Origin: Deltaproteobacteria bacterium HGW-Deltaproteobacteria-19 | Lineage (GTDB): Bacteria > Desulfobacterota > Syntrophia > Syntrophales > PHBD01 | Assembly (NCBI GenBank): GCA_002841865.1 | Contig: PHBD01000021.1 | Location: forward strand, 1-64,000 | Reading direction: 5' to 3' | Length of the DNA: 64,000 nt | Shown: positions 7,915-16,544 of the stretch, one piece after another | Layout: every line of letters begins with the position of its first letter | How positions within the stretch are numbered: the first letter of the stretch is position 1 | The notes under the pieces: generated by a model | Seen by the model: only the letters and a program-made list of their open reading frames with translations | Told to the model about the DNA's origin: nothing | The model's database searches: none | Made by a program: the position numbers and the translations under genes

Positions 7915-7944
7915 TTGACATTCGCAGACATTCCGGGGTAGAGA
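7915..7944 (+). promoter_or_regulatory. Candidate sigma-70 promoter of the importer operon
   Basis: A perfect -35 TTGACA (7915-7920) is followed after 18 bases by a weak -10, TAGAGA (7939-7944). It is placed about 30 bases before the small leader reading frame. The weak -10 keeps confidence low. Confidence 0.35.
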
Positions 7945-7973
7945 CATCCAACTTTTTTCATTGGGAGAAATCA

Positions 7974-8045
7974 ATGTCCATCGGAACCATCCAGGCAAAC
8001 TTCTTTTTCAGCTTTTTTAGCTTTACCCGGGAGGTCTGCCTGTAG
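7974..8045 (+). CDS. Candidate Phe-rich leader peptide (attenuator)
   Basis: A 23-codon reading frame starts with ATG at 7974, seven bases after a GGGAG site, and ends with TAG at 8043-8045. Residues 10-17 read FFFSFFSF, six Phe codons in eight (8001-8024). This composition matches known Phe leader peptides such as PheL and PheM, which control attenuation through charged tRNA-Phe. Two hairpins with U-runs lie downstream, before the importer operon at 8167. I infer that transcription of the operon responds to phenylalanine supply. The frame is too short to prove by composition, and a U-rich tract would encode Phe by chance. Confidence 0.55.
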   Translation: MSIGTIQANFFFSFFSFTREVCL

Positions 8046-8072
8046 GGTCCGAAACAAATTGAAATGAAAGGG

Positions 8073-8113
8073 CCGCGGGCGGATCTCATACCGCCCGCGG
8101 CTTTTGTTTTTTT
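8073..8113 (+). terminator. Terminator-like hairpin 1 of the leader
   Basis: A perfect 10-bp stem, CCGCGGGCGG (8073-8082) with CCGCCCGCGG (8091-8100), has an 8-nt loop and is followed by CTTTTGTTTTTTT. This is a textbook intrinsic terminator, yet no gene on this strand ends upstream except the leader frame, so it probably acts within the operon leader. Confidence 0.75.
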
Positions 8114-8118
8114 GGCCA

Positions 8119-8146
8119 GGCCGCGGAATTATCCACGGCCTTTTTT
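8119..8146 (+). terminator. Terminator-like hairpin 2 with alternative pairing
   Basis: GGCCGCGG (8119-8126) pairs with CCACGGCC (8133-8140), with one mismatch, and six T follow. The right arm of hairpin 1 (CCGCGGC, 8095-8101) can pair instead with GCCGCGG (8120-8126), excluding both hairpins. Such mutually exclusive pairing is the logic of attenuators. Confidence 0.6.
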
Positions 8147-8166
8147 ATTTTCCGAAGGAGGAGATC

Positions 8167-9369
8167 ATGAAACGGATTTCTTGTCGCACCCTGTGGGCTG
8201 TCCTGGCGGCAGTTTTCCTCATTGCCGCCGGTCCGGTCCAGGCGAAGACGATCAAGGTCGGCGCCGCCATCAACATGACGGGCCCCGCCTCCACCTGGGG
8301 CCAGTACCACGCCAAGGGCATGCAGGACTACCTGGCCTACGTCAACGACGTCAAGGGAGGCGTCGCGGGCAACAGGATCCAGGTCATCCTGGCCGACACG
8401 GCCTACAAGGTTCCCGAGGCGGTGGCGGCAGTCAAGAAGTTCGCCATCCAGGACCAGGTGGACATGATCGCCACCTGGGGGGCCGGCGAGGGGCTGGCGG
8501 CCAAACCCATCGTCCAGCAGTACAAAATCCCCACCATCAATTTTTCCACCAGCTGGGAGATCCTGGAGAAACCGGTGGACTACATGTACCTCCCCTTCGG
8601 CAGCTACCGCATGGACTGCCAGGCCGTCCTCGAGTACATCAAGGCGATCCACACGGGCAAGGACGCGCCGAAAGTCGGGCTCCTGACCTTCAACAACGCC
8701 TACGGTCGATCCATCCACAAGCCGACCCGGGAATACGCCGCCCGTCTGGGGGTGAAAATCGTCGCCATTGAAGAATTCCCGCCCAAGACCGTGGACCTGA
8801 CCACGGAGCTGCTCCGGCTCCAGAAGAGCGGCGCCGAGTACGTCTTCATGCAGATGCTCCCGTCAGCCATCATCACGACCCTCCGGAGCGCCGACCGGCT
8901 CCGTTACGCCCCCCGTTTCTTCGGTACCTGGACCTCGACGGATCCCGATTTCTTCCGTCAGGGCAAGGGTCTCATCCGGGACCGCCTCGCCATGCAGTTC
9001 CCGGGAGGCCTCCCGTCGGACAACATAGCGGGGATGAACGTCATGAAAGAGCTCTGGAAACGCTACCGGACCGTGACCCGTTTCGACGCGGCCTACTGGG
9101 AAGGCGTCGCCGTGGGCATGATCATGGAGCGGTCCTTCGTCCGAGCCCAGCAGAAATTCAAACAGATCAACCGCAGCACGATCAACCAGGCTATGGAATC
9201 CTTCAAGAACGAGGATTTCGGCGGCCTGCTCCCGCCGGTTACCTACACGAAGAAGGATCACGGCGCCTCGTTCAGGGCACGCATCGTCCAAGTCCGGGAA
9301 GACGGCACCTACGTTCCGTTGACCAATTTCTATACACCGGGAAAGGAAAAGATCCGGCTCGTGAAATAG
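8167..9369 (+). CDS. ABC transporter substrate-binding protein, LivK/branched-chain type
   Basis: The 400-residue precursor has a signal peptide (MKRISCRTLWAVLAAVFLIAAGPVQA, cleaved after about residue 26 at VQA-KT; only fragments needed to see it: basic start, Leu/Ala core, AxA site). The mature protein opens with IKVGAAINMTGPASTWG, the usual start of periplasmic binding proteins of the hydrophobic amino-acid uptake (HAAT) family. It captures a ligand in the periplasm for the permeases encoded downstream. The start at 8167 follows GAAGGAGGAGATC. It is first in a six-gene operon, behind a putative Phe-codon attenuator. HAAT-family ligands include branched-chain amino acids and aromatic or aliphatic acids; the acyl ligase in the operon favours an acid, the leader favours a Phe link. 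Confidence 0.88.
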   Translation: MKRISCRTLWAVLAAVFLIAAGPVQAKTIKVGAAINMTGPASTWGQYHAKGMQDYLAYVNDVKGGVAGNRIQVILADTAYKVPEAVAAVKKFAIQDQVDMIATWGAGEGLAAKPIVQQYKIPTINFSTSWEILEKPVDYMYLPFGSYRMDCQAVLEYIKAIHTGKDAPKVGLLTFNNAYGRSIHKPTREYAARLGVKIVAIEEFPPKTVDLTTELLRLQKSGAEYVFMQMLPSAIITTLRSADRLRYAPRFFGTWTSTDPDFFRQGKGLIRDRLAMQFPGGLPSDNIAGMNVMKELWKRYRTVTRFDAAYWEGVAVGMIMERSFVRAQQKFKQINRSTINQAMESFKNEDFGGLLPPVTYTKKDHGASFRARIVQVREDGTYVPLTNFYTPGKEKIRLVK

Positions 9370-9473: not shown

Positions 9474-10301
9474 ATGAAGGCATTTCGGGGAGAGCCGGCT
9501 CTCTTCAAATCCCCCACGGAGCCGGACCGCCGGGCGGATCTGGACGTGGAGGGCCTGTCACTGGCCTTTGGAGGGGTCCAGGCCCTGCAGGACGTAAGCC
9601 TCACAACCAGGACCGGCGAGCTCCTGGCTGTGATCGGCCCCAACGGGGCGGGCAAGACAAGCCTCCTGAACTGCATCACCGGCTTTTACAGGCCCCAGAA
9701 GGGAACCATCCGTTTCAACGGCCAGGACATCACGCGGATGCCCGCTCACCACCTCGTGCGAGTCGGTATCGGACGGACATTTCAGAACATCGAGCTGTTT
9801 CCTGGAATGACGGTCCTGCAGAACCTTCTTCTGGCCCGGAACATTCACTGCCGGTACCGTTTGGCGGATGCATGCCTTTTCAGTCCCGCCGTCCGCCGGG
9901 AGGAAATCCGTCACCGCCGTCTCCTGGAGGAGCTGATCGATTTTCTCGAGATCCAGGCCATCCGCAAGAAAACCGTGGGGTCCCTTCCCTACGGCCTGAT
10001 GAAGCGGGTGGAACTGGGACGAGCCCTGGCCCTGGAACCGAAGCTCCTCGTTCTGGATGAACCCTTCGCCGGGATGAACCTGGAAGAGAAAGAAGACATG
10101 GTTCGATTTCTCCTGGAGCTGAACAAAGGGTGGAACCAGACCATGATCCTCGTGGAGCACGACATGTCCATCGTGATGAGCATCTCGGATCGTGTCGTGG
10201 TTCTCAATTTCGGCGAGCAGCTCGCCGAGGGCACGCCGGAGGAGATCCGGAACCACCCGGAGGTGATCCGGGCTTACCTGGGGGACGAACATGACGGCTG
10301 A
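9474..10301 (+). CDS. ABC transporter ATP-binding protein, LivG type
   Basis: The 275-residue ATPase has Walker A GPNGAGKT (55-62), a signature region LPYGLMKRVELGRAL (171-185) and Walker B LLVLDEP (191-197), followed by an H-loop in LVEHDMS. The long insert between Walker A and signature, and the end EEIRNHPEVIRAYLG, are typical of LivG. The signature lacks the classical LSGGQ, which is usual for LivG (LPYGxQR-type), here with LMKR. A 20-residue charged N-terminal extension precedes the core. It powers import at the cytoplasmic face with the LivF-like partner. Its last 11 bases overlap the ligase gene. Confidence 0.92.
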   Translation: MKAFRGEPALFKSPTEPDRRADLDVEGLSLAFGGVQALQDVSLTTRTGELLAVIGPNGAGKTSLLNCITGFYRPQKGTIRFNGQDITRMPAHHLVRVGIGRTFQNIELFPGMTVLQNLLLARNIHCRYRLADACLFSPAVRREEIRHRRLLEELIDFLEIQAIRKKTVGSLPYGLMKRVELGRALALEPKLLVLDEPFAGMNLEEKEDMVRFLLELNKGWNQTMILVEHDMSIVMSISDRVVVLNFGEQLAEGTPEEIRNHPEVIRAYLGDEHDG

Positions 10302-12336
10302 TTCCGTTTTGCTGGCCCGTGCCTCCGGAGGCTGGCTCAGCCGGTTGCTCTCCGGCACGCCTCCCGGGACATCGGCGCCTTCGCCCGAGGTCGCGGCAGG
10401 GGCGCCGACCGGACCCGGCCCGAAGGACGCGCCCAAGGACATCTCCCGCCTGACGCTCCCGCAGGTGCTCGCTCGCCAGGCGGCAATGCTGGGCGACCGC
10501 ACGGCCATCCGAGAGAAGGCCTACGGCATCTGGCAGACCCATTCCTGGAACGACTACCTGTCCGGCGTCCGGAAGACGGCCCTGGGCCTCCAATCCCTGG
10601 GGCTGCGGCGTGGCGAGTCAGTCGCCCTCATCGTCAACAACTGCCCCGAATGGCTCTTCGGAGAACTGGGTGCCCAGGTCCTCGGAGCCGCCACCCTGAA
10701 CCTCTTCACCTCCTCCGTCGCCAGTGAACTCCGCTTCTCACTGAACCGGATCGGCGCATCCTACGTCATCGTCCAGGACCAGGAGCAGGCGGACAAACTC
10801 CTGGAGCACCGGCAGGACCTCTCCCATGTCCGGAAGGTCATCTACATCGATCCGACAGGGATGCGGTTCTACCGGGAAGATCCCTGGCTGATGAGCTACC
10901 GCGAACTCCTGGATCTGGGCGAGGAGTCGAACCGGAGCGACCCGGAGCGTTTCGACCGGGAGATGGCTCAGGGAAATTCCCGGGATACGGCCCTGATGAT
11001 CCAGACCTCGGGAACCACGGGGGTCTCCAAGCTGGCCATGCTGAGCCACCGGGGCCTCACCGCCATGGGCCGGAGCTGGACCGGCCATCTTTCACTCCAA
11101 CCCGGGGAAAACTGGATCTCCATCTCTCCCCCCGCTTGGATCGTCGACCAGATGTGGGGCGTCGGCGTTGCCCTGGTAAGCGGGATGACGATGAACTTCC
11201 CGGAGACCCCGGAGACCGTGACGGAAGACTTCAGGGAGATCGGCCCCGCCGTCCTGATCACCTCGTCCCGTTTCTGGGAGGACCTTGCCTCCCGGATCCG
11301 GGTCCGCATGTCCGACGCCGGCTGGATCAACCGCCTGCTCTTCCACTGGGCAGAGGCGGCGGGTCACAGATCCGCCGAGCAGGGCCGATCCAACGGCTCC
11401 CGCTCCTGGTCCAACCGGCTGGTCCAGGGCCTTGCGAAACGGATCGTCTACGATCCGCTCCTGGACCGCATCGGCTGCTCCGGCTTCCGCTGCGTGCTCA
11501 CAGGAGGCCATCCCATCAGCCCCGACGTGATCCGCTTCTTCCGTGCCATCGGACTGAACCTGAAACAGTGCTACGGCCTGACCGAGTCGGGAGGGATCTT
11601 CCAGATCCAGCCGGATGACGAGGTGAAACCCGAGACCGTGGGCCGTCCCCTGCCGGGAACGGATGTGAAAATCGCCGAGGACTCGGAGGTCCTGGTCCGG
11701 GGGGATGCCAACTTCACAGGATATTACAAAGACTTCGCCGCCACCGAAGGGGCCTTTCAGGACGGCTGGCTCCTGACGGGAGACGCCGGCTACCTGGACG
11801 GGGACGGGCATCTTGTCATCATCGGCCGCAAGGAGGAGATCATCCGCAACAAGACCGGTGAGGCCTTCTCCCCCGACTTCATCGAGACGCGGCTGAAATT
11901 CAGCCCCTATATCAAGGAGGCGGTAATCTTCGGCGAAGGCCGTCCGTTCCTCTCGGCGTTTATCAACATCGACTTCGGCAACGTGGGAAACTGGGCGGAG
12001 GAGCGGATGATCCCCTACACGACCTACCTCGACCTCTCCCAGCGGCCGGAGGTGGAGGAGCTGATCCTTGCCGAGCTGAAGGAGGTCAACGAGCGGCTCC
12101 CGGCGTTCATGCGGATCCGCAAGTTCATCCTCCTCTACAAGCTCCTCGACGCCGACGACGACGAACTGACGCGGACGGGCAAGGTCCGGCGACGCTTCGT
12201 CTACGGACTGTACCTCCGCCTGATCGAGGCCATGTACCGAAACGAGCGGGAAGTGGACGTGAAGACCCCCATCCGCTACCGCGACGGCCGGGAAGGATGG
12301 ATCGAGACCCGGGTCCGGGTCATCCCGGTAGACTGA
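10291..12336 (+). CDS. AMP-dependent acyl-CoA ligase embedded in importer operon
   Basis: The 681-residue enzyme belongs to the ANL superfamily, long-chain (FadD15/FAA-like) branch: P-loop TSGTTG (239-244), YGLTES, the LLTGDAGYLD hinge and GRKEEIIRNKTGE. It forms an acyl-AMP and then acyl-CoA. Residues 20-50 are a Pro/Gly/Ala-rich linker before the catalytic domain. The ATG at 10291 lies inside the end of the ATPase gene, an 11-base overlap that suggests coupled translation. Because it is placed between the two halves of an importer, I infer that it activates the imported acid, trapping it as CoA thioester. Substrate chain or ring type cannot be told from sequence. Confidence 0.9.
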   Translation: MTADSVLLARASGGWLSRLLSGTPPGTSAPSPEVAAGAPTGPGPKDAPKDISRLTLPQVLARQAAMLGDRTAIREKAYGIWQTHSWNDYLSGVRKTALGLQSLGLRRGESVALIVNNCPEWLFGELGAQVLGAATLNLFTSSVASELRFSLNRIGASYVIVQDQEQADKLLEHRQDLSHVRKVIYIDPTGMRFYREDPWLMSYRELLDLGEESNRSDPERFDREMAQGNSRDTALMIQTSGTTGVSKLAMLSHRGLTAMGRSWTGHLSLQPGENWISISPPAWIVDQMWGVGVALVSGMTMNFPETPETVTEDFREIGPAVLITSSRFWEDLASRIRVRMSDAGWINRLLFHWAEAAGHRSAEQGRSNGSRSWSNRLVQGLAKRIVYDPLLDRIGCSGFRCVLTGGHPISPDVIRFFRAIGLNLKQCYGLTESGGIFQIQPDDEVKPETVGRPLPGTDVKIAEDSEVLVRGDANFTGYYKDFAATEGAFQDGWLLTGDAGYLDGDGHLVIIGRKEEIIRNKTGEAFSPDFIETRLKFSPYIKEAVIFGEGRPFLSAFINIDFGNVGNWAEERMIPYTTYLDLSQRPEVEELILAELKEVNERLPAFMRIRKFILLYKLLDADDDELTRTGKVRRRFVYGLYLRLIEAMYRNEREVDVKTPIRYRDGREGWIETRVRVIPVD

Positions 12337-12353
12337 ACCAGAAAGGGTGTGTC

Positions 12354-13232
12354 ATGGATTTCTTCCTTCATCTTCTTGTCAACGGCCTGAGCGTGGGTTT
12401 CCTTTACGGCCTGTCGGCCCTGGGCTTCGTTATGATCTTCAAGTCCTCGAGCGTTCTCAACTTCGCCCACGGGGAACTTCTGGCCATGGGGGCATTTCTG
12501 TTCCTGGCCCTGGTGACATGGGCCGAACTTCCCATTGCCCTCGCTTTCCTGCTGACGCTCGCAGGCTGTTTTTTCCTCGGCTTCGTCATCGAGCGGCTGT
12601 TCCTCCGGCCCCTCATCGGAGAGCCGCTGATCTTCGTCATCATGCTCACGGTGGGGCTGGCCTCCATGTTCAAGGGGCTCCTGCTCTTCATCTGGGGAGG
12701 AAACCTGCGCACCTACCCCGATTTTCTCCCCGAGTGGATGGGGCTCACCTGGGGCACCATCTCGGTGCCGCCTGTTTATACCGCCGTTCTGGCCGTGGGG
12801 ACGGTCTTTCTCATCCTCTTTGGCCTCTTCTTCAAATTCTCATCCCAGGGAATCTACATGCGATCCGTGGCGGACAACCAGCGGGCAGCCCTCTCGCTGG
12901 GCGTTCACGTGAAACGGGTCTTCGCCCTCTCCTGGGCCATCGCCGCGCTGGTTGCCGGGATGAGCGGCATCGTCCTGGGCGTCATCAACGGCATCAACGT
13001 CCACGACCTGTCGGCCATCGGGCTCAAGGTCTTCCCCGTGGTCATCCTGGGCGGGCTGGATTCCATCGGCGGGGCCATCCTGGGGGGCATCATCATCGGC
13101 CTCCTGGAGACCTTCACCGGCGGCTACCTCTCCCCTTCCCTCCGGGACGTGGTGCCCTACATCGCCCTCGTGGTGATCCTGATGGTGAAGCCCTACGGGC
13201 TCTTCGGACTGAAAGAAATCGAGAGGGTCTGA
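12354..13232 (+). CDS. ABC transporter permease, LivH type
   Basis: The 292-residue membrane protein has about eight hydrophobic segments and the LivH start FLHLLVNGLSVGFLYGLSALGFVMIF. The coupling-loop region RAALSLGVHVKRVFALSWAIAALVAGMSG is characteristic of branched-chain type permeases. It forms the channel with the LivM partner, whose gene starts one base after its stop. The ATG at 12354 follows AGAAAGGGTGTGTC; an in-frame extension to 12297 lies within the ligase gene. Confidence 0.92.
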   Translation: MDFFLHLLVNGLSVGFLYGLSALGFVMIFKSSSVLNFAHGELLAMGAFLFLALVTWAELPIALAFLLTLAGCFFLGFVIERLFLRPLIGEPLIFVIMLTVGLASMFKGLLLFIWGGNLRTYPDFLPEWMGLTWGTISVPPVYTAVLAVGTVFLILFGLFFKFSSQGIYMRSVADNQRAALSLGVHVKRVFALSWAIAALVAGMSGIVLGVINGINVHDLSAIGLKVFPVVILGGLDSIGGAILGGIIIGLLETFTGGYLSPSLRDVVPYIALVVILMVKPYGLFGLKEIERV

Positions 13233-13233
13233 G

Positions 13234-14310
13234 ATGACGACGAGGAAATGGAGTTTTCATCCCTGCGGGAATTATCGGGAACGGTACGACCAGGAACTTA
13301 CGGTGTTCGAGACCGACTTCGGCCGCCTCTGGGCCGTTCTCGGACTGGTTCTGCTCTTCGGGGCCGTCCCTTTCGCGTCCTCTCCCTACCTCCTGTACAT
13401 TCTCAACATAACGGGCATCGCCGCCGTCGCAGCGGTGGGCCTGAACATTCTCGTCGGCTACACGGGACAGATCTCTCTTGGCCACGGGGCCTTCGTCGGC
13501 GTCGGGGCCTACGCGGCGGCTATCCTTGCTTCTCGCTGGAACGTCCCGTTCCTGGCGGCGGTTCCGGCGGCAGGACTGATTGCGGCGGCGGTCGGTATGG
13601 TCTTCGGCATCCCCTCGGGACGGATCAAGGGACTCTACCTCACCATTGCCACCCTGGCAGGCCAGTTCATCATTGAATACGTTCTTGTTCACTGGGAATC
13701 GGTCACGCAGGGAACCATGGGGATCACCGTTCCACCGGCAGGCATCCTGGGGTGGTCCATATCCGGAGACCTGCCTTTCTTTTATGCCATTTACCTGGTC
13801 CTGGCGGTAATGATCTGGATGGCCGTGAACCTGATGCGAACCCGCTACGGCCGTGCCCTCGTGGCGATCCGCGACAATGACCGGGCCGCCGAGGGGATGG
13901 GCATTCCCATATTCCCCTACAAGCTCCTGGCCTTCGGGATCAGTTCGTTCTACGCCGGTGTCGCCGGAGCCCTGTGGGCCTACTACCTGGTCAGCGTCAC
14001 GTCGGAGCCATTCAACCTGGGCCTCTCGGTGGAGTACATTGCCATGGTGATCATCGGCGGCATGGGCAACATGGCCGGCGCCGTCTTCGGGGCGATCTTC
14101 ATCACAGGCTTGAACGAGATTCTCCGGTTCGTCACAGAGGCCTTCATGAACATGGGCATCCTGTCGGAATACGGCCTGAATCTGGCCCCCCTGCGGGAGT
14201 TCACCTTCGGCCTTGCCATCGTCCTCTTCATTCTTATCGAGCCCCGGGGACTGGCGGAGGTCTGGCGGATTGTCCGGTCGAACTTCCGCCTCTGGCCGTT
14301 CTCATACTGA
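13234..14310 (+). CDS. ABC transporter permease, LivM type
   Basis: The 358-residue membrane protein has a polar N-terminal stretch of about 35 residues and then about ten hydrophobic segments. GLNILVGYTGQISLGHGAFVG is the LivM signature, and ALVAIRDNDRAAEGMGI is the ATPase-coupling loop. It forms the translocation path with the LivH-type permease. The gene begins one base after the previous stop, so the pair is tightly coupled. No unusual features. Confidence 0.92.
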   Translation: MTTRKWSFHPCGNYRERYDQELTVFETDFGRLWAVLGLVLLFGAVPFASSPYLLYILNITGIAAVAAVGLNILVGYTGQISLGHGAFVGVGAYAAAILASRWNVPFLAAVPAAGLIAAAVGMVFGIPSGRIKGLYLTIATLAGQFIIEYVLVHWESVTQGTMGITVPPAGILGWSISGDLPFFYAIYLVLAVMIWMAVNLMRTRYGRALVAIRDNDRAAEGMGIPIFPYKLLAFGISSFYAGVAGALWAYYLVSVTSEPFNLGLSVEYIAMVIIGGMGNMAGAVFGAIFITGLNEILRFVTEAFMNMGILSEYGLNLAPLREFTFGLAIVLFILIEPRGLAEVWRIVRSNFRLWPFSY

Positions 14311-14322
14311 GGAGGAAAGACC

Positions 14323-15126
14323 ATGGACAACGAGGTTCTTCTGCAACTCAACAATATATCGGTGGTCTATTCGGATGTGATCCAGGTCCTCAAGGGTGTC
14401 TCCCTGGCGGTGGAGAAGGGGCGGATCGTCTCCCTTCTCGGAAGCAACGGGGCTGGGAAAACGTCCACCCTCAAGGCCGTCTCGGGCCTCCTCAAGCCGG
14501 AGAACGGCCGGGTTACCGAAGGTACGATTCTCTATGGCGGACAGCCCGTCCAGAACGAGTCGCCCGAGACGATCACCCGCAAGGGGATCATCCAGGTCCT
14601 GGAGGGACGGCAGCCGTTCAAGTATCTGACGGTGGAGGAAAACCTCCGGGTGGGCACAGCCACCCGGCCTGTCGGCCCGTATCGGAAGGACCTGGACATG
14701 GTCTATGCCTATTTCCCGGCCCTGCTGACGCGGCGGAAGAGCCTGGCGGGCTACTGCAGCGGCGGTGAACTGCAGATGGTCGTCATCGGCCGGGCCCTGA
14801 TGGCCCACCCGTCGCTTCTCCTCCTGGACGAGCCCTCCCTGGGCCTCGCCCCGCTTGTCGTAAAGGAGATCTTTACGATCATCCGCCGCATCAACGAGGA
14901 GCAGGGCACTACGATCCTGCTGGTGGAGCAGAATGCCCGGATGGCCCTGTCCATCGCACACTACGGCTACGTCATGGAAAACGGCAAGATCGTCATGGAG
15001 GGGCCGGCTGCGGAACTGGCGGAAAACCCGGACGTCAAGGAGTTTTACCTGGGGATGGGGGCGGAGGGGATGGTCCGCTCCTATCGGGACGTGAAATCCT
15101 ACAAGCGTCGGAAGCGCTGGCTGTAA
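14323..15126 (+). CDS. ABC transporter ATP-binding protein, LivF type
   Basis: The 267-residue ATPase shows Walker A GSNGAGKT (40-47), signature YCSGGELQM (144-152) and Walker B LLLLDEP (165-171), with the H-loop replaced in LLVEQNARMAL, as is common in LivF proteins. The C-terminus has about 25 residues after ELAENPDVKEFYLG ending in a basic tail. It pairs with the LivG-type subunit. GAGGAGGAAAGACC precedes the ATG. It is the last gene of the importer operon; no clear terminator is seen in the 80 bases before the convergent gene. Confidence 0.92.
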   Translation: MDNEVLLQLNNISVVYSDVIQVLKGVSLAVEKGRIVSLLGSNGAGKTSTLKAVSGLLKPENGRVTEGTILYGGQPVQNESPETITRKGIIQVLEGRQPFKYLTVEENLRVGTATRPVGPYRKDLDMVYAYFPALLTRRKSLAGYCSGGELQMVVIGRALMAHPSLLLLDEPSLGLAPLVVKEIFTIIRRINEEQGTTILLVEQNARMALSIAHYGYVMENGKIVMEGPAAELAENPDVKEFYLGMGAEGMVRSYRDVKSYKRRKRWL

Positions 15127-15206: not shown

Positions 15207-16544
15207 TCAGGCGTTACGGGATCCGGCTGCCAGGGACAGGCGACGGCCGAGGTGGTTTCCCAGGCGTTTCCCCAGGGCGGCCAGGGTCCAGATGAGCGGC
15301 GCCCCCATGGCCTGGGGCAGAACGCCGGCGTCGCAGCAGTACAGATTCCGGATCCGGGTCTCGAGGTTGGCATCCATCACTTCGCCTACGCGGCAGGAGG
15401 CCGAGGGGTGGGCTCCGATGGGGTTCAGGGCCAGGATGCTGTCTTCCCGGGCCCCGGCTTTCCGAAGGACCCGCTTGATGAGTTCGACACCCTTATCCAG
15501 ACGCTTGCGGTCCTGCAGGGTGATGGGCTTGGAGAAGGACCCGCCCGGGTAGATCTCACCCTCCGTTTCGTCCCGAACCTTCACCATGATTCCCGTGTAA
15601 TCCCTGAACTCCCGAAGCTTCGTAAAGTGCTGGAATCCCTTGGAGGCAAGGAGCACGGCAAACTGGGACCAATTGGGGAAAACCGGCAGGATGATGAGGC
15701 CCTCGGACTCATAGAGGTCGGTGGTCCCCACCGCCATCGGATGGGCGTTGTACGTGTTCATCCCGGGTACGACGCCGCCGACGAATTGTAGCCAATCGCA
15801 GCAGAACCCTTTCCCGGCCTCCCGGATGCCCGCCCGCCGGAGCAGGTGGACATCGGACATTCCCGCCGAGAGGACCACCGCCTTCCCCCGGTACCGGAAG
15901 GTTCGCCCGAAACGCTTCCCCTCCACGCCGACGGCCGATCCGCCCTCGCAGAGGATTCTGTCCACGCGAGTACCCAGTTTGAGTTCCGCTCCGAAACGGA
16001 CAGCCTCGTCAACCCAGGCCCGCGCCGTCCACTTGGCGCCCCTGCGGCAGCCCAGCATGCAGTCGCCGCAGCCCTCAATGCATTTCTCGGCATCGATGAA
16101 TTTTTCCATCTTCCGCCAGGGAAGACCGGTGGACTGAGCGGCATCCATGAGGCGGAAATTGGCCTCGCCGATGAGCCGGTCCGGCAGTTCGGCGATGCCC
16201 AGTTCCCGGCGGACCTCCCCGGTCTCGACGGACAGGTCGATTCCAAACGCAGACAAGACCGATAGTGGCGGGGGCATGGCGCATCCGGCGGAGAGATTGG
16301 AGGCGCCACCCAGGGAATCGGCGAACGTCACGGGATGCTTCTCCCGGCTGCGGGTCAGTCCGCAGCCATCGAGGACCCGCATGACCGTCAGGGTGCTCCC
16401 CATGTGGTTCACCCGGCCGCCCCGTTCCAGCAGGAGCACCCGGCCGCCCTGCGCCGCCACGCTCCGGGCGACGGCGGCCCCGGACACGCCGGAACCGACG
16501 ACGATGACGTCATATTCCTCTTCATGCCTGTCTGCCGGTTTCAC
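15207..16544 (-). CDS. GMC-type FAD oxidoreductase with four-Cys motif
   Basis: The 445-residue flavoprotein has an N-terminal dinucleotide-binding motif (VVGSGVSGAAVA, 15-26) and a C-terminal GMC-type end with the HPSASCRVGEVMD and GVLPQAMGAP stretches around the active site. Cys155, Cys159, Cys162 and Cys166 form C-x3-C-x2-C-x3-C, followed by RRGAKWTARAWVDEA; this resembles the conserved Cys-Gly region of long-chain alcohol oxidases of the GMC family. It probably oxidises an alcohol or steroid-like hydroxyl; in an anaerobe the electrons must leave to a carrier, and the Fe-S protein gene upstream on the same strand is the obvious candidate. It is cytoplasmic or membrane-associated, with no signal peptide. 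Confidence 0.82.
   Translation of the reverse strand: MKPADRHEEEYDVIVVGSGVSGAAVARSVAAQGGRVLLLERGGRVNHMGSTLTVMRVLDGCGLTRSREKHPVTFADSLGGASNLSAGCAMPPPLSVLSAFGIDLSVETGEVRRELGIAELPDRLIGEANFRLMDAAQSTGLPWRKMEKFIDAEKCIEGCGDCMLGCRRGAKWTARAWVDEAVRFGAELKLGTRVDRILCEGGSAVGVEGKRFGRTFRYRGKAVVLSAGMSDVHLLRRAGIREAGKGFCCDWLQFVGGVVPGMNTYNAHPMAVGTTDLYESEGLIILPVFPNWSQFAVLLASKGFQHFTKLREFRDYTGIMVKVRDETEGEIYPGGSFSKPITLQDRKRLDKGVELIKRVLRKAGAREDSILALNPIGAHPSASCRVGEVMDANLETRIRNLYCCDAGVLPQAMGAPLIWTLAALGKRLGNHLGRRLSLAAGSRNA

Follow-up and report, generated by a model that had tools for sequence, protein, structure and literature searches.

A Phe-codon leader with switchable hairpins very probably attenuates an importer/acyl-CoA ligase operon in Syntrophales

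An importer/acyl-CoA ligase operon preceded by a Phe-rich ORF

The window analyzed here, a 64,000-nucleotide stretch of a Syntrophales genome, carries on its forward strand an operon in the order livK-livG-ligase-livH-livM-livF. It encodes a LivK-type substrate-binding protein (Peripla_BP_6; 8167-9369) with the ribosome site AAGGAGGAG (8155-8163), a LivG-type ATPase (9474-10301), an AMP-forming, FadD-like acyl-CoA ligase (10291-12336), LivH- and LivM-type permeases (12351-13232 and 13234-14310), and a LivF-type ATPase (14323-15126), the operon's last gene in the window. This gene order is constant across a collection of 80 loci (mostly Syntrophales; Syntrophaceae, Smithella, and Syntrophus assemblies predominate), and the ligase gene lies inside the operon wherever the locus is long enough to show it. 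Where related loci leave room 3′ of livF, 32 of 50 have a PaaK-like second ligase gene there; in the window, its place is occupied by a GMC-type oxidoreductase gene on the reverse strand (15207-16541).

Upstream of livK, a 23-codon ORF, MSIGTIQANFFFSFFSFTREVCL, runs from 7974 to 8045 on the forward strand, ending in a TAG stop codon (8043-8045) and preceded by the purine-rich ribosome site GGGAGAAATCA (7963-7973). Its control codons (8001-8024) read FFFSFFSF, six of the eight being Phe; among 1,202 short ORFs (15 to 40 codons) in the window, no other contains a stretch of eight codons with over four Phe. The preliminary description of the locus had claimed such a frame, with a good ribosome site and this Phe run, and the sequence bears it out. 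A possible promoter, read from the sequence, lies farther upstream (7915-7944): TTGACA (7915-7920), an 18-nt spacer, and TAGAGA (7939-7944), which is a poor −10. A promoter scan called no σ70-like site; a TTGAC(A/T) box is present at the equivalent place in relatives.

Alternative pairings in the leader RNA

The leader stretch folds far better than its shuffled versions (z = −6.0; 0 of 200 shuffles as good). Arm 1 (7992-8007) starts a little upstream of the Phe run and extends into it; its protector hairpin with arm 2 is worth about −20 kcal/mol. Arm 2 (8033-8050) spans the 3′ end of the ORF and the bases just past it, and is also the left arm of an antiterminator: its segments 8033-8043 and 8046-8050 bind 8075-8085 and 8070-8074, respectively, with a total energy of about −25 kcal/mol. 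The latter two segments make up arm 3 (8070-8085), which doubles as the left arm of terminator 1 (8068-8113), a 3:4 stem (8068-8105) followed by a U-run and found by folding, terminator scan, and conservation alike. Arm 4 (8091-8101), the right arm of terminator 1, has an alternative partner in arm 5 (8118-8127), with a 4:5 pairing energy of about −17.6 kcal/mol in the window; arm 5 otherwise pairs with arm 6 (8132-8140) to form terminator 2, whose stem and U-run extend over 8118-8146. Both of the terminator hairpins with U-runs noted earlier are present by folding and terminator scan.

The 2:3 antiterminator, overlooked in the preliminary description, is the decisive element. That description had seen a difficulty in the 28 bases separating the leader stop codon from the first hairpin, since stalling on the Phe codons would not let a ribosome mask it directly; the difficulty disappears because arm 2 takes the left arm of terminator 1 as its partner. 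The arrangement is the standard one of 1:2, 2:3, and 3:4 pairings, in which the first hairpin needs no masking.

Leaders of relatives

Of 60 related genomes, counting that of the window, 41 have a LivK ortholog (67 to 93% identity). The leader precedes 37 of these 41 (peptides such as MNRVYVISDQAVPFFAFFSFFSEVCLLRS and MYRHNPVGRFFAFFSFFREVCP); of the remaining four, one is cut by a contig end inside the leader and three are without it. In a second, partly overlapping collection, the 80 loci described above, our RNA model placed the leader before livK in all 79 usable loci at E ≤ 1e−12; the 80th was left out because its sequence ends about 60 bases upstream of livK. The preliminary description held that relatives keeping the operon but lacking the Phe frame would speak against its reading; nearly all relatives keep both, the exceptions being three loci of one family (L036, L038, and L041) in which the livK operon is kept, the leader is degenerate, and the Phe frame is lost. 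Beyond the order, LivK orthologs at L151, L167, and L169 are preceded by short leaders rich in Phe, which read FFFF or FFSFFFFC.

The start codon, frame, and stop codon of the leader ORF are all conserved in relatives. Because the Phe run is U-rich and lies within a hairpin in the window, the stretch might have been selected as RNA, for instance as a pause or protein site, with the ORF incidental. The codon test contradicts this: at Phe-dominant positions across leaders, we counted TTT 161 times, TTC 31 times, and TTA and TTG once each (TTT/TTC, 192; TTA/TTG, 2), so that the third base changed from T to C 31 times and to A or G only twice. Out-of-frame TTN triplets, in comparison, are rich in TTA and TTG (TTA, 66; TTG, 28; TTC, 8). 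The Phe codons themselves thus appear to be selected, beyond any requirement for U-richness, and with the frame and its start and stop codons retained as well, we regard selection as RNA with an incidental ORF as very improbable.

Both alternative folds are conserved too. We scored pairing in 35 aligned leaders, with slid versions of the antiterminator pairings as the control. For the antiterminator plus 4:5 pairing, 97.3% of cells were paired, versus ≤46% when slid, with 15 double changes; for the two terminators, 93.7% were paired, with 30 double changes. Across the 80 loci, the corresponding values were 89.9% and 93.6%, from an alignment fitted to the terminator structure. Aligning relatives, as had been suggested, revealed conserved Phe codons and compensatory changes in both folds. 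Two consecutive hairpins with U-runs could be plain tandem intergenic terminators with no regulatory role, but a promoter-like box lies upstream of them and livK downstream, and they come with an ORF and an antiterminator that are both conserved; there is very little chance that this explanation is correct. By sequence and comparison, the ORF, its Phe codons, the predicted mutually exclusive pairings, and their conservation are established, and leader and switchable hairpins appear as a conserved unit across a whole order of anaerobic bacteria.

A predicted switch set during transcription

We folded truncated RNAs ending after arm 3 from each of the 35 leaders, placing the ribosome either at the first Phe codon or at the stop codon. 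With the ribosome at the first Phe codon, the mean probability of the 2:3 pairing was 0.98, exceeding 0.5 in all 35 leaders; at the stop codon, the mean was 0.01, and no leader exceeded 0.5. The left arm of the antiterminator is thus computed to be exposed on stalling and covered at the stop codon, and its pairing with arm 3 is exclusive with terminator 1. Full-length equilibrium folding with ribosome masks failed to separate these states, which the truncated-RNA test did: at full length, most leaders still favor terminator 1 when the ribosome sits on the Phe codons. Consequently, the switch must be kinetic and set during transcription, as known attenuators are. The 1:2 protector hairpin, strong in the window, is weak in many relatives; its z fell below −1 in 14 of 35.

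We consider it highly likely, from the conserved Phe codons, frame, and pairings, that the leader works as a ribosome-mediated attenuator of transcription, reading the level of charged tRNA-Phe to control the importer/CoA-ligase operon. That the Phe codons, the frame, and both folds are kept over the order supports the earlier proposal that tRNA-Phe charging controls these genes. We infer the kinetics of ribosome and polymerase, as well as the response to Phe, as follows. When Phe is sufficient, the ribosome would reach the leader stop codon and cover arm 2; with arm 2 covered, arms 3 and 4 would form terminator 1 and arms 5 and 6 terminator 2, leaving the operon off. When charged tRNA-Phe is short, the ribosome would stall on the Phe run and cover arm 1, and the free arm 2 would capture arm 3 once it is made, blocking terminator 1. 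The freed arm 4 could then capture arm 5 ahead of the synthesis of arm 6, so that terminator 2 would also be delayed. Phe shortage very probably turns on the operon through a classic switch, one not known to have such a target.

The preliminary description had proposed that 4:5 pairing excludes both hairpins. The pairing itself stands, at the energy given above; the covariation evidence for it is mixed. When we sought independent 4:5 covariation, the 35- and 80-sequence alignments pointed in different directions: in the former, a single column of arm 5 changes along with arm 4, and in the latter, five leaders follow arm 6 instead of arm 4. At equilibrium, 5:6 beats 4:5 in 28 of 35 leaders. With arm 3 trapped and arm 6 unmade, all 35 leaders form a 4:5 hairpin (mean, about −15 kcal/mol), which persists when half of arm 6 is out. 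Because 4:5 forms before arm 6 and outlasts half of it, a kinetic domino is plausible, and so is the disarming of terminator 2 through 4:5 pairing. Terminator 2 is absent from a Smithella-like subgroup, as judged by gaps in the 80-locus alignment. The double-terminator layout makes the leader a compact case for studies of cotranscriptional folding.

Aromatic leaders elsewhere in the genome and phylum

We used the same RNA model to search the window genome and 297 Desulfobacterota genomes. In the window genome, a YWFGFYYF leader precedes a DAHP synthase-aroB-pheA-aroD-aroE-aroA-aroK-aroC-tyrA operon. The leader MAPKLNLTYWFGFYYFGPQVCLVLGRR at C50:69174-69339 (L052), which has two terminators followed by an aromatic amino acid operon, appears to be paralogous to that of the window (E = 2e−12). 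Two terminators in tandem also occur in a Trp leader (WWWW) before trpE (C50:78512-78651) and a Val leader (VAVVVVV) before ilvB (C36:9428-9582); a further Trp leader (WWW), with a weak score, precedes a trpB-like gene (C81:41441-41560). The identity of pheA was confirmed; the other aro, trp, and ilv names are those we presume from reading the sequence. The control codons of the aromatic, Trp, and Val leaders match their own operons.

Hits at E ≤ 1e−5 were found in 131 of the 297 Desulfobacterota genomes. The best of these have Phe/Tyr/Trp-rich leaders and lie before genes resembling ADTH synthase or DAHP synthase, aminotransferase genes, and importer genes. Nine loci (L150, L152, L154, L158, L159, L161 to L163, and L166) have Tyr/Phe/Trp-rich leaders before a gene like that of ADTH synthase (DhnA type), an alternative entry into the shikimate pathway; at L168, L171, and L172, Phe/Tyr-rich leaders precede a PLP aminotransferase gene (PRK06836-like).

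Three Tyr-rich leaders (GYYYYGY, for example), in three genomes of the phylum, precede an operon encoding a LivK-type protein, permeases, ATPases, PaaK, IorA, and IorB (loci L174, L175, and L176 [L156, L157, and L170]). The PaaK homolog matches TIGR02155 (phenylacetate-CoA ligase) at E = 1.8e−148, a score below the curated cutoff, and IorA scores above its own. By its annotation, the Tyr-leader operon has the components expected for an aryl-acid route to Tyr; this suggests that importers of this kind supply aryl acids to aromatic amino acid synthesis.

What the operon may import

Since an attenuator's control codons identify the amino acid that its operon serves, the leader informs on the function of a widespread importer/CoA-ligase operon. 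In the reading we prefer, to which we give a little less than an even chance, the operon takes up an acid, phenylacetate for instance, and converts it to its CoA ester for Phe synthesis via a reversed indolepyruvate ferredoxin oxidoreductase and a transaminase. An aryl-acid route to aromatic amino acids is known in Methanococcus maripaludis (Porat 2004, as cited in PMC4162585). Syntrophus is found in digesters that form phenyl acids, and its abundance drops as the phenylacetate concentration rises (PMC7201606).

The main alternative is direct Phe import: the same attenuator would turn on uptake of Phe or other aromatic amino acids when these are short, with the ligase a passenger or otherwise used. 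We consider this less likely than not. Annotation credits E. coli LivKHMGF/LivJ with Phe import, and the nearest solved relative of the window LivK (predicted structure, mean pLDDT of 83) is 3lkb, at 25% identity, which has valine bound. On the other hand, a ligase lies inside the operon at every locus long enough to show it, often with the PaaK-like second ligase following, and the Tyr-leader operon includes PaaK and IorAB. In E. coli LivJ/LivK, a Glu faces the amino group of the ligand; its aligned position here holds an invariant Trp. We considered this missing ammonium-binding Glu as proof against amino acid binding but demoted it to a weak argument, because valine-bound 3lkb also lacks a Glu there.

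Alternatively, the operon could import fatty or other nonaromatic acids, with Phe control serving as a general proxy for starvation. The ligase is FadD-like, and the second-best fold match to LivK, 4n03, is a fatty-acid binding protein; however, Phe codons are used throughout the order, while elsewhere in the window genome the leaders carry codons suited to their own pathways, and we consider this reading improbable. Lower-ranked structure matches include several aromatic-acid binding proteins of Rhodopseudomonas. Taken together, the structure matches leave Phe, aryl acids, and other acids all as candidate LivK substrates, and the importer and ligases, as annotated, would fit Phe import or aryl-acid salvage.

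Returning to the aryl-acid reading, the ior and PaaK genes are absent from the window operon, and IorA- and PaaK-like genes lie on other contigs of the window genome; the combination of importer, PaaK-like ligase, and IorAB under an aromatic signal occurs in the Tyr-leader operon of other genomes. The window genome encodes a full de novo Phe pathway, and among the relatives compared, leader presence does not track pheA absence. In a dozen relatives (G005, G007, G009, G014, G023, G025, G028, G030, G031, G032, G038, and G050), iorA lies 17 to 31 kb downstream of livK on the same strand. We dropped a functional linkage between the two: where looked at, housekeeping genes lie between them in the same order (recJ-, purN-, purM-, and hom-like genes, as we take them to be from their sequences), and the proximity is thus probably inherited gene order.

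The full proposal, a domino attenuator in which one stall disarms two terminators to control aryl-acid salvage beside the shikimate pathway in Desulfobacterota, by tRNA-Phe here and by tRNA-Tyr in the sister operon, is speculative and, as a whole, rather doubtful. If the aryl-acid reading is true, translational control governs a recycling of phenyl acids to Phe and Tyr in these anaerobes.

Likeness to characterized attenuators and importers

In the largely open-access literature searched, we found no description of this leader. At cutoff, Rfam yielded no match for the window leader, nor in 15 loci with such leaders, and no T-box riboswitch match in either. The window leader scored 16.5 bits against Phe_leader (RF01859; cutoff, 55). 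The best Rfam score was for His_leader (RF00514), at 26.7 bits over 7975-8110 (cutoff, 49); the attenuator layout is alike, but the window codons are Phe, not His.

Among importers, the E. coli branched-chain system LivKHMGF/LivJ belongs to the same family, its binding proteins sharing 17 to 19% identity with that of the window; the window operon differs in its internal ligase gene and Phe attenuator. The M. maripaludis aryl-acid route is alike in the proposed downstream use (acid, CoA ester, reductive carboxylation, and transamination), whereas the window case is bacterial, with an importer under predicted attenuator control.

PheL/PheM-type leaders and those of pheA, pheST, trp, his, and ilv have a control-codon ORF and protector, antiterminator, and terminator arms in the same order as in the window. 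Unlike these, the window leader has an importer plus CoA-ligase operon as its target and a second terminator that arm 4 could disarm. The mechanism read from these features is thus that of a ribosome-mediated attenuator of the trp/phe kind; what is new is its putative target and its order-wide conservation, and possibly also the coupling of two terminators.
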